Part shown: piece after piece, positions 11,397-58,695 of the stretch
Numbering within the stretch: position 1 is the stretch's first letter
How the letters are laid out: each line of letters opens with the position of its first letter
Origin: Kordiimonas aquimaris
Lineage (GTDB): Bacteria > Pseudomonadota > Alphaproteobacteria > Sphingomonadales > Kordiimonadaceae
Assembly (NCBI RefSeq): GCF_025574485.1
Contig: NZ_JAOBPO010000002.1
Coordinates: 684,501-748,500 of the forward strand
DNA: 64,000 nt
Direction of reading: 5' to 3'
The notes under the pieces: model-generated
Databases searched by the model: none
Seen by the model: the letters and a program-made list of their open reading frames with translations, nothing else
Told to the model about the DNA's origin: nothing
Made by a program: the position numbers and the translations under genes

Positions 11397-12575
11397 TTAC
11401 TCGGCAGCCACTGCATCCATCTCAGCAGGTGCATGAAAGCGTTTCATAATAGTATCACGCTTGGATGGCTTTATGTATGCTTTCGACATATCACCGTTCA
11501 TCTGTTTTGCTACTAAAGGATCCATAATTTTAAACCAGATAGGGGGATTCCATGCGGCTAAATACATGGTGAAGTATCCTGCAGGTAACTGCGGTGATGT
11601 ATCAAAATGGCGAAGGCATTGATAAGGTCGTTCAGCATGTGCGTGATGATCAGAATGGCGTTGTAGATGAAACAGTAATACATTGGACACAACGTGATTT
11701 GCATTCCAGCTATGATGTGGTTGCACGCGTTCATATGTTCCGTCCGCGCGTTTGCTGCGCATTAAACCATAATGCTCGATGTAATTTGCGCTCGAAAGCA
11801 TCAGGTTAGAGAGCAGGGCGGCAATAAGAAGAAATGGAACGACTATCAAACCGAAAATCGCTGTTATGCCAGCGTAAAGGCCAATTGTGATAAGACTATT
11901 TAACAGGACTTCGTTTTCAAGTGAAAAGGCAGACTTTCCTTTGCGTTCCAAACGTTTGCTCTCGATTGACCATGCACGTTTGAAGCCGCCCGGGAGTTCA
12001 TGCAGCACAAACTCATAAAAGCTTTCACCCATCATTGATGTGGCACTGTCTTCAGGTGTGGCAACCTGAACATGGTGCCCAAAGTTATGCTCAATACGGA
12101 AGTGGCCCATGCCGCATAGGCAAAGAAAGAAGCGTGTGAACAACAAGGAAGTTTTGTCACGCCTGTGGCCAACTTCATGGCCTGTGTTCAGTGCGCCAGC
12201 ACCTACTAGGCCAACTGTAATTGTTGTTGCAATGTAAACATTCCAGTCAAATGGTTGCGACGAGATAAACCACGCGCCTGCAATCCAAACAAGGTACGCA
12301 AGAGGTGCCCCCGAAAATGCGGACCAACGATAAAATGGGTCATCGCGTAATGCGGGGATCGCTTCCTTTGGTGGGTTGCTCGTATCTTCGCCCACCATCA
12401 TTTCAATGACAGGAATGAAAACATAGAAAAAGATAGGCGTGAACCACAGTGCTAATCCATTGCCTGTTTCCATGTAAAGCCAGAACCCTAAAAAAGGTAA
12501 TATTACCAAGATGGTTGCGAGTGGCCAAAGATACTTCTTGGGGTCTTTATATGGTGTGGTTGCAGCTTGAGACAT
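11397..12575 (-). CDS. alkB: Alkane 1-monooxygenase AlkB
   Basis: 392 residues. Integral-membrane non-heme diiron enzyme that hydroxylates medium-chain n-alkanes at the terminal carbon with electrons from rubredoxin. All hallmark histidine boxes are present: HEVGHRRD (133-140), EHNFGHHVQVATPEDSA (162-178), the AlkB-specific NYIEHYG (264-270) and LQRHSDHHAHAERPYQ (304-319). The NYIEHYG box separates it from fatty acid desaturases and xylene monooxygenases. Several hydrophobic helices lie at residues 17-60 and 90-130. No rubredoxin gene or domain is in the window. Upstream are a TTGACA element, an inverted repeat and a divergent tetR. Confidence 0.93.
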   Translation of the reverse strand: MSQAATTPYKDPKKYLWPLATILVILPFLGFWLYMETGNGLALWFTPIFFYVFIPVIEMMVGEDTSNPPKEAIPALRDDPFYRWSAFSGAPLAYLVWIAGAWFISSQPFDWNVYIATTITVGLVGAGALNTGHEVGHRRDKTSLLFTRFFLCLCGMGHFRIEHNFGHHVQVATPEDSATSMMGESFYEFVLHELPGGFKRAWSIESKRLERKGKSAFSLENEVLLNSLITIGLYAGITAIFGLIVVPFLLIAALLSNLMLSSANYIEHYGLMRSKRADGTYERVQPHHSWNANHVVSNVLLFHLQRHSDHHAHAERPYQCLRHFDTSPQLPAGYFTMYLAAWNPPIWFKIMDPLVAKQMNGDMSKAYIKPSKRDTIMKRFHAPAEMDAVAAE

Positions 12576-12600
12576 GATTCTACCTTCAGCGTAGTTAATC

Positions 12601-12651
12601 TAATTCACAATACAGGCTATCTTTAATGATAAAATTGTCAATAGTGAATTA
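12601..12651. promoter_or_regulatory. alkB upstream region: TTGACA element inside an inverted repeat
   Basis: TAATTCAC (12601-12608) and GTGAATTA (12644-12651) are perfect inverted arms flanking a minus-strand TTGACA (12636-12641). No strong -10 is visible at 16-18 bp. The arrangement would let a regulator, perhaps the divergent TetR, cover the alkB promoter. Inference from spacing. Confidence 0.4.
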
Positions 12652-12707
12652 ATTTTCTGATAACGCTATATATTTCAGAGGATTATGACTGGTATGGTTA
12701 TGGAATT

Positions 12708-12741
12708 AAAAAAGCACGCCCCACAGTGTGGAGCGTGCTTT
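12708..12741 (-). terminator. Rho-independent terminator of the small RNA
   Basis: On the minus strand AAGCACGC and GCGTGCTT form the base of a long stem with a CCAC/GTGG upper part, followed by TTTTTT (12708-12713). This is one of the strongest terminators in the window, although no protein gene lies just upstream on that strand. Confidence 0.85.
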
Positions 12742-12813
12742 ACGAATCACCTATTCGGGGGAGGAGGAAAACCAATGCTTGGGGGAGGAGGTTTTCTTTG
12801 GTGATCTGCGCTT
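12708..12813 (-). ncRNA. Candidate small RNA with two anti-Shine-Dalgarno motifs
   Basis: Read on the minus strand, about 106 nt contain CCTCCTCCCCC twice (12781-12791 and 12757-12767, exact copies 24 nt apart). One copy lies in the 16-nt loop of a 7-bp hairpin (12790-12796 with 12767-12773). The other is single-stranded between that hairpin and a closing 6-bp stem (12800-12805 with 12746-12751). A long GC-rich hairpin followed by six T ends it. A promoter-like pair (12844-12849, 12821-12826) gives a start near 12813. Alphaproteobacterial RNAs of the alpha-r14 and cuckoo types expose similar CCUCCUCCC loops to bind ribosome sites. It could instead be an attenuated alkB leader. No protein fits the interval. 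Confidence 0.7.
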
Positions 12814-12820
12814 GAAAAGA

Positions 12821-12849
12821 TATTTAGCAACTATGCTAAAATTATGCAA
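12821..12849 (-). promoter_or_regulatory. Promoter of the candidate small RNA
   Basis: Minus-strand TTGCAT (12844-12849), 17-bp spacer and TAAATA (12821-12826), placed 7-8 bp before the expected RNA start. The hexamers match the housekeeping consensus only moderately. Confidence 0.4.
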
Positions 12850-12963
12850 AACGATTTAATTTATTATTATAATCGACATAAACGATATGTTGGAATTTAC
12901 ACTAGATATTGACCTTGGGTTATGATCACGTTGGTTGGTAAGTGTATTAGCAAGAGCTTTAGA

Positions 12964-13563
12964 ATGGCAGAAACGAAAAAAACACGCACAAGACTATCAC
13001 CTGAAGAACGCCGTGAACAATTGCTGCAGGCCGCTATTGATTTATTCGCTGAACGCGGTTTTGGTGAAGCCAAGCATGCTGATATTGCCAAACGTGCAGG
13101 CGTTTCAACCGCCGCAACATTTGTTTATTTTCCAACAAGAGAAGAGTTGTTGATTGCGGTGGTTGAGGAAGTTGCACGGTTCTATCTAGCGTTATTTGAT
13201 GGAATAGAAGGTGGAAAGGGCACAGCCTCAGATGTTCTGCATGGCCTAGCGGCAAGGATTGTCAGCCTTGTTGATACGCATCTGAGTTACGTTTTAGTGC
13301 AGCATGGCTGGGCTGCCCGATTTGATAAAGACCTGCGCACTCGTTTTCTCGCATTTCAGGACCAGGTGCTTAGCAAGATTAGTGAAATTCTGTGGGCGTC
13401 AGAGGATAATATGATGCGCGATGGTCGTGATGATGCGCGTATTTTACTTTCTGCTAGTGAGGCACTGGCAATCATGAAAGTGGACGGCGAACCTGATGAA
13501 AAATTGGAACGATTCACCAAACACACGATTGAGGTTGTGCTGGCATATGGTAAGTCGAATTGA
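12964..13563 (+). CDS. TetR/AcrR family transcriptional regulator
   Basis: 199 residues from ATG 12964 (MAETKKTRTRLSPEERR). The N-terminal helix-turn-helix is clear: LLQAAIDLFAERGFGEAKHADIAKRAGVSTAATFVYFPTREELLIAVVEE, residues 20-70. The C-terminal half is a helical ligand domain with no recognisable specificity. It is divergent from alkB and the small RNA, and 32 bp upstream of a VOC gene on the same strand. It could control any of these. A short imperfect repeat ACATA-N5-TATGT (12876-12890) lies in its own promoter region. The frame opens at 12922, but the extra 14 residues are atypical. Confidence 0.85.
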   Translation: MAETKKTRTRLSPEERREQLLQAAIDLFAERGFGEAKHADIAKRAGVSTAATFVYFPTREELLIAVVEEVARFYLALFDGIEGGKGTASDVLHGLAARIVSLVDTHLSYVLVQHGWAARFDKDLRTRFLAFQDQVLSKISEILWASEDNMMRDGRDDARILLSASEALAIMKVDGEPDEKLERFTKHTIEVVLAYGKSN

Positions 13564-17585: not shown

Positions 17586-17662
17586 GGCCGAGTAGCTCAG
17601 TTGGTTAGAGCAGTGGAATCATAATCCATGTGCCGGGGGTTCAAATCCCTCCTCGGCTACCA
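17586..17662 (+). tRNA. tRNA-Met (CAT), elongator type
   Basis: 77 nt cloverleaf. The acceptor stem GGCCGAG/CTCGGCT starts with a G-U pair. The D-arm is GCTC/GAGC and the anticodon loop ATCATAA has anticodon CAT. The T-arm is GGGGG-TTCAAAT-CCCTC. The discriminator is A and CCA is encoded. The ATCATAA loop with GGA/TCC stem resembles alphaproteobacterial elongator Met tRNA rather than initiator or lysidine-modified tRNA-Ile2. Confidence 0.95.
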
Positions 17663-58192: not shown

Positions 58193-58566
58193 GGCAGATG
58201 GCTGGATGATCGCCGCCGCGCTTGACGCGGGGGAGGAAAGTCCGGGCTTCACGAAAACACGGTACCGGTTAATGGCCGGCGAGGGCGACCTTAGGGAAAG
58301 TGCCACAGAAAGCAAACCGCCTTACCCATTTTGGGGCAAGGTAAGGATGAAAGGGTGCGGTAAGAGCGCACCGCGTCTTTGGTAACAAGGATGGCAAGGT
58401 AAACCCTACCGGAAGCAAGACCAATAGGGATGGTTGCTTTAAGTAGCAGGCGAGTTTTCGCGCCGCCGTCCGGGTCGGTTGCTTGAGTGTGCTGGCAACA
58501 GTACACCTAGAGGAATGATCATCACCAGCTTTGTTGGTACAGAACCCGGCTTACACGCCATCTGCC
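58193..58566 (+). ncRNA. rnpB: RNase P RNA (M1-type, alphaproteobacterial)
   Basis: About 374 nt. The ends GGCAGATGGC and GCCATCTGCC form the P1 helix. The conserved core is present: GAGGAAAGTCCGGGC (CR I) at about 58232, GGGTGCGGTAAGAGCGCACCGC in the specificity-domain region, AGGCGAG near 58448, and ACAGAACCCGGCTTA (CR V) near 58540. It is the catalytic subunit of RNase P, which makes mature tRNA 5-prime ends. A short open frame within it (58182-58385) is not a gene. Confidence 0.96.
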
Positions 58567-58695
58567 ACTTATTTTCCGCATACAACAACATTTGTGTGAT
58601 CAGGCTTTCGATTTTCCAATCACCTCTATATGGTAATTCTCGATTTGGGGCGTTGGTTTTTAACCTGCGCATATAGAAAAGAGGGTTTGGTTGAT

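Follow-up and report, generated by a model that had tools for sequence, protein, structure and literature searches.

The minus strand between about 12813 and 12708 of the window (the whole stretch of 64,000 nucleotides that was analysed) appears, with moderate confidence on our part, to carry a real, young and lineage-specific gene for a trans-acting small RNA (sRNA), which would work in the manner of NfeR1 and SisA. An sRNA directed against Shine-Dalgarno (SD) sequences is the best reading of its anatomy, in which a segment of about 106 nt bears two exact copies of a motif, one in a hairpin loop and one single-stranded, as the initial annotation had described and as both the coordinates and the fold confirm. 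The elements of the locus and its neighbours are as follows:

12708..12813, minus strand: candidate sRNA of about 105 nt, delimited by the fold (z -5.27), the terminator and the coordinates, its 5' end placed from the -10-like element
12781..12791, minus strand: anti-SD copy 1, CCUCCUCCCCC, mostly within the inner hairpin loop
12757..12767, minus strand: anti-SD copy 2, CCUCCUCCCCC, unpaired between the inner and closing stems
12790..12796, minus strand: 5' arm of the inner stem, GAAAACC, from the fold
12767..12773, minus strand: 3' arm of the inner stem, GGUUUUC, from the fold
12800..12806, minus strand: 5' arm of the closing stem, GAUCACC, from the fold
12745..12751, minus strand: 3' arm of the closing stem, GGUGAUU, from the fold
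12708..12741, minus strand: intrinsic terminator, a hairpin (12741-12711) followed by Us, from a terminator scan
12844..12849, minus strand: weak -35-like element TTGCAT, read by eye and missed by the sigma-70 scan
12822..12827, minus strand: -10-like element CTAAAT, 16 nt from TTGCAT, read by eye, agreeing with CTATAT (PMC10746234) at 5 of 6 positions
12823..12840, no strand assigned: perfect palindrome TTTAGCA-NNNN-TGCTAAA in the promoter spacer, a candidate operator and the sole copy in the genome with 0 mismatches
12621..12643, minus strand: conserved TetR-operator-like palindrome resembling ATTGATAANNTTATCA, in the neighbouring alkB upstream region, outside the sRNA
11397..12575, minus strand: neighbouring alkB-type gene for an alkane 1-monooxygenase (Pfam FA_desaturase), 48% to plasmid-borne proteins annotated as alkane 1-monooxygenases
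12964..13563, plus strand: neighbouring tetR gene (TetR_N)

Read along the minus strand from about 12813, the element presents the first closing arm, an inner arm running into CCUCCUCCCCC, the loop, the other inner arm, the second CCUCCUCCCCC, the remaining closing arm and the terminator. The two exact minus-strand copies of CCTCCTCCCCC (12791-12781 and 12767-12757) are 24 nt apart, and under a dinucleotide model only about 7e-9 same-strand 11-mer pairs separated by 40 nt or less are expected in the window. Both occurrences of CCTCCTCCC in the 64-kb window fall within this element, and at least two copies were present in one of 100 dinucleotide shuffles. Its own genome (G000; 3.8 Mb in 26 contigs) contains three copies, the only one outside the element (L003) lying antisense to an open frame of 473 codons. 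In a motif enrichment test across the genus, CCTCCTCCC was no commoner than the reversed control in 16 of 19 genomes.

Folding recovered the closing stem, the hairpin loop and the Rho-independent terminator as earlier described, the last on the minus strand only. The whole candidate reaches a minimum free energy (MFE) of -37.7 kcal/mol (z -5.27), a stability that 0 of 200 shuffles match; once the terminator is removed z falls to -1.9 and 49 of 1000 shuffles fold equally well, and hence the terminator supplies most of the fold-stability signal. This terminator comprises 14 pairs (12741-12711) and its T-run is found on the minus strand only; the scan that detected it was lenient, with 0.9 terminator-like sites expected by chance in such a region. 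The start of an RNA ending at 12708 would lie most simply in the short gap to tetR. Exposing the last nine bases of copy 1 costs 0.25 kcal/mol and all eleven 6.0, the corresponding values for copy 2 being 0.94 and 4.0.

The promoter-like pair reported upstream fared less uniformly. TTGCAT-16-CTAAAT is readable by eye, and this reading fits, if weakly, an RNA start near 12813; against this, a sigma-70 consensus scan of 12300-13300 returned 0 promoter-like sites, with 2.1 expected in shuffles. The ar14 promoter is described as CTTAGAC-N17-CTATAT with a conserved upstream stretch (PMC10746234), and in a comparison with it the pair seen here is a by-eye reading only, the consensus scan being negative. 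The palindrome TTTAGCA-NNNN-TGCTAAA occupies most of the TTGCAT/CTAAAT spacer, overlaps the -10-like element and lies between the sRNA and tetR promoters, and it might control the sRNA. With up to two mismatches this pattern occurs at 33 places in the genome versus 15 for the reversed control. On the plus strand a TATAAT is present at 12868, before tetR, and therefore the sRNA and tetR would be divergent.

Genes for AlkB are present in 17 of the 19 genus genomes, including the one studied here, and 15 of the others possess a divergent tetR-alkB pair, whose projected start codons are 137-302 nt apart versus 388 in the window. In the remaining AlkB genome (G010) a contig end cuts the locus, which places it outside the comparison of 15 gaps (L038-L051 and L055, with G015 represented by the broken locus L055). 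A palindrome with at most two mismatches from ATTGATAANNTTATCA precedes alkB in all 15 syntenic gaps, as it does at 12643-12621 of the window, and is probably the operator of the divergent tetR. The motif pair occurs in 0 of these 15 gaps, a single copy being found in one of them (L040), and CCTCCTCC is missing in 14 of the 15 relatives on the alkB strand over 320 nt upstream of the alkB match. The element is therefore best seen as gained in this lineage, on the side of the alkB control region that faces tetR. The initial annotation had held that a lack of motif conservation in related genomes would count against its reading, and the locus indeed lacks such conservation; we argue that this points to a lineage-specific element, and not against an RNA gene. 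Its emphasis on the placement beside alkane oxidation is not borne out: pairing of the motif at the alkB start does not surpass that of an average window gene (-6.9, against a mean of -7.7; the tetR start gives -6.8), the relatives' tetR-alkB pairs do without the motif pair, and the link to alkane oxidation looks incidental. A promoter duplication was considered for the AT-rich 30-base stretches at 12626-12655 and 12833-12862, which show 73% similarity.

Cuckoo RNAs consist of 2 to 4 adjacent hairpins with a loop motif in each, a layout that differs from the one here, where the motifs sit in nested elements and not in adjacent hairpin loops. The alphar14 RNAs are described as having three hairpins whose loops each expose an unpaired CCUCCUCCC (PMC10746234, PMC7143759), and their member NfeR1 provides a precedent for an anti-SD sRNA (PMC10746234). 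With alphar14/NfeR1 (RF02344) and the cuckoo RNAs the element shares the CCUCCUCCC core in open regions, an intrinsic terminator and the proposed redundancy of anti-SD sites. It differs in its two copies, of which one occupies a loop and the other an internal loop beneath the closing stem, and in a terminator loop that lacks the motif; the three-hairpin layout is thus absent, and no homologue was found. In an Rfam search of the locus (601 bases) ar14 was the best match, covering the full model at 29 bits (E 0.0016) against a curated cut-off of 58.8, and neither RF00519 (mmgR/suhB) nor RF02791 (CcsR1) matched up to E 10 in 12500-13100. The early comparison with alpha-r14 and cuckoo-type RNAs accordingly holds for the anti-SD anatomy and the closest Rfam model and gives way on the score, half of the cut-off, and on the layout; the proposed covariance-model check thus gave a match below the cut-off for alpha-r14 and none up to E 10 for CcsR.

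The alphaR8/MmgR/SisA-D RNAs (RF00519, suhB) similarly combine a hairpin, a single-stranded UUU(U)CCUCC stretch and a terminator (PMC12559287), whereas the element has UUUUCCUCCUCCCCC in place of the UUUCCUCCCU core, an extra motif copy in the hairpin loop, no match to RF00519, and a position away from the FGase gene, both genomic copies of which are outside the window. CcsR1-4 (RF02791) resemble it in being CCUCCUCCC-motif RNAs of alphaproteobacteria. CcsR is described as co-transcribed with a DUF1127 gene (PMC10253847), unlike the element, which has no RF02791 match and is flanked by FA_desaturase (alkB) and TetR_N genes with no DUF1127 gene. By the tests made, it belongs to neither the NfeR1 family nor the SisA family, and we regard it as a lineage-specific variant of a known RNA type that differs in layout. 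Elsewhere in the window just two Rfam matches exceed their cut-offs, a class A RNase P RNA (58194-58569) and a tRNA (17586-17659).

A canonical representative of the alphaR8 type also exists in G000. These RNAs are described as a weak hairpin, a single-stranded UUUCCUCCCU 10-mer and a terminator, with a copy beside the FGase gene in most species, and SisA, by means of its anti-SD 10-mer, as repressing TonB-dependent receptor mRNAs in Caulobacter (PMC12559287). The copy in G000 (L363, 1258-1346) is likewise beside FGase and scores 52.9 bits versus an Rfam mmgR cut-off of 41; the alphaR8 16-nt motif was recovered from 8 of the 30 FGase loci fetched, in 8 genomes that include G000 and G013. Since G000 has this separate canonical alphaR8, the window RNA would be an additional anti-SD RNA.

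Searches for further copies of the element pointed to its own genome. BLAST with the 99-nt core matched there and in 0 of 39 other genomes, and the double motif was found among 40 relatives in the same genome and in G028, where the place was rejected because by eye it reads as a gene's coding end together with an SD. A double-motif scan gave at least 118 stretches in genome contigs, from which the own genome may be missing, and 28 in viral contigs; 8 of 151 motif pairs among the matches listed had a five-T run within 110 nt, and by eye none of the 8 resembled a terminator-ended sRNA. A covariance model built from the window sequence alone, run with strict filters on 396 genomes of the order, scored 139.5 bits in the own genome and at most 38.3 in the others. 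Seven genomes, the own included, gave a match at E 0.1 or below, with no convincing homologue in the 395 others. None of the six model-matched loci read contains CCUCC: L240 and L242 resemble terminator matches, and L237, L238, L239 and L241, with ACCCC-type repeats, were rejected as the same RNA. These four loci, corresponding as a group to G062, G083, G085 and G089, which belong to a single genus from a different family of the order, have near 1501-1604 a similar layout of closing stem, inner hairpin, C-rich stretch and terminator. The Rfam ar14 model found some match at E up to 10 in 29 of 59 genomes and 0 above the cut-off; several of the better ones, and L007 and L013 for example, look like plain C-rich terminators.

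Four other explanations were weighed. We consider it unlikely that the element is a degenerate alphar14 or cuckoo member whose hairpins were lost or rearranged: it has the same core motif, and RF02344, matched over the full model at E 0.0016, is its best Rfam match, but 29 bits stand against the 58.8 required, the terminator-like L007 (40.4 bits) and L008 (36.5 bits) both score higher, the layout differs and no synteny was found. Nor do we see much probability in a chance C-rich stretch beside a stray terminator, with no gene involved. The lack of conservation, the weak promoter and a z of only -1.9 for the fold outside the terminator are all compatible with this explanation, which would nevertheless have to account for two 11-mers that are identical and spaced by 24 nt, when the whole genome has three copies of the 9-mer, and for a directed terminator that no annotated gene precedes on the minus strand in the gap.

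Two proposals would give the element another role. As an alkB leader or attenuator, which its position directly upstream of alkB on the same strand would allow, transcription would start upstream and mostly stop at the terminator, with read-through feeding alkB; we hold this to be improbable, given that the operator-like palindrome at 12643-12621 is downstream of the terminator and also occurs in 15 relatives that lack the motif pair. Still more remote is the idea that the plus strand is what matters, its two strong SDs and a 9-codon frame, MLGGGGFLW (12775-12804), serving as a leader peptide or as a sponge for anti-SD RNAs. Here GGGGGAGGAGG, 7 nt and ATG, within 12757-12804, form an ideal start, CrfA is described as a known sponge of such a type (PMC12559287), and folding is as stable on the plus strand as on the minus strand (-37.9 versus -37.7 kcal/mol) and more stable once the terminator is left out (-18.1 versus -13.8 kcal/mol). 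However, the minus-strand fold contains three G-U pairs, two of them in the stems and one in the terminator, that would be mismatches on the plus strand, the hairpin there has a mismatch and no U-run, and TATAAT at 12868 is downstream, such that no plus-strand promoter is apparent upstream. The predicted sRNA gene thus remains our preferred reading, the chief doubts about it being that its transcription is deduced from sequence and that it is not conserved.

With regard to targets, GGAGGAG-N3-11-ATG occurs 14 times in G000 versus 5 for the reversed control, and as many times or more in 16 of the 18 other genus members. One of the 14 sites is the plus strand of the element itself. Three of the 13 outside it are starts of TonB-dependent receptors (the tandem paralogues L274 and L275, and L284), six more precede frames of at least 129 codons (PspC-domain, hydantoinase-B, DAO oxidoreductase, alpha/beta-hydrolase-like, FtsL-like and one unassigned; the alpha/beta-hydrolase-like and FtsL-like names were given by eye, the FtsL-like protein being without a Pfam match) and four precede frames of at most 69 codons. 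The motif pairs better with 30 Plug-domain genes of G000 than with 52 window genes (means -11.7 versus -7.7; p 1.7e-4), a receptor excess that persists after regression on 16S-tail pairing (p 0.0036) and that 0 of 100 shuffled motifs reach. In the control genome G013, which has no RF02344 match but has an alphaR8 copy (L369), those Plug genes with loci (30 of 41) average -10.9 (p 0.54 versus G000), and the seed of the own alphaR8 gives the same contrast between receptors and window genes. The receptor targets are therefore not specific to the window RNA: receptor mRNAs are good targets for any anti-SD RNA in this genome, and the preference indicates compatibility, not proof. The automatic choice of start codons led to some errors, among them the tricorn-type gene, whose start was missed. 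There GGGAGGG stands 4 nt before GTG and pairs at -16.5 kcal/mol, more strongly than the best of the 52 automatic window starts (-14.9), making the initial choice of this gene as a possible target a fair one. Three neighbouring TonB-dependent receptor genes (L305, L310 and L308) lie at about 9,000-17,200 of contig C1 of the same genome, with the ribosome site CTTGGGAGGAGTTTAATATG common to two and absent at the automatically chosen start of the third.

Based on these observations we propose a putative sRNA gene divergent from tetR, with its own terminator ending it before the alkB control region. The two largely open CCUCCUCCCCC sites, probably redundant, would prevent the translation of several mRNAs by pairing with their G-rich ribosome binding sites (GGGGAGGAG and similar). 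The leading candidates, judged by their ribosome sites, would be the window's tricorn-type gene and, as likely targets, the TonB-dependent receptor mRNAs with GGGGAGGA-type sites. RNAs that block ribosome sites are known; what is new here is a different layout, found in one of the species searched. If correct, the proposal implies a young sRNA gene that obtains a ready-made regulon from its seed alone, alongside a conserved alphaR8 RNA with the same target preference already present in the genome. How an sRNA arises, and how it competes for receptor mRNAs with an older RNA that also targets them, would then become testable. It would also mean that family models based on one layout miss anti-SD RNAs of another.

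Other species of the genus contain C-rich hairpin-loop candidates, near 1501-1650 in L010, L014, L016 and L032 and near 1-120 in L065. These five retained candidates overlap open frames of 52-142 codons; L008 and L011 were dropped, overlapping open frames of 442 and 309 codons. Comparison of the neighbourhoods of L010, L011, L014, L016, L032 and L065 yielded a sole protein pair, between L014 and L016 (39% over 112 aa). Because such candidates occupy loci without clear common neighbours, one might speculate, although we think it doubtful, that anti-SD sRNA genes were born repeatedly at unrelated places in the genus, converging on the same C-rich code since surface-receptor mRNAs retain G-rich ribosome sites. 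Anti-SD RNAs could also arise from terminators whose loops carry an anti-SD sequence. In three species the loop of the hairpin directly 3' of alkB is of the CCTCCTCCC type (AAAGGCCCCTCCTCCCGGGGCC and similar), at 295-303 of L041, about 2532 of L052 and 695-703 of L053.
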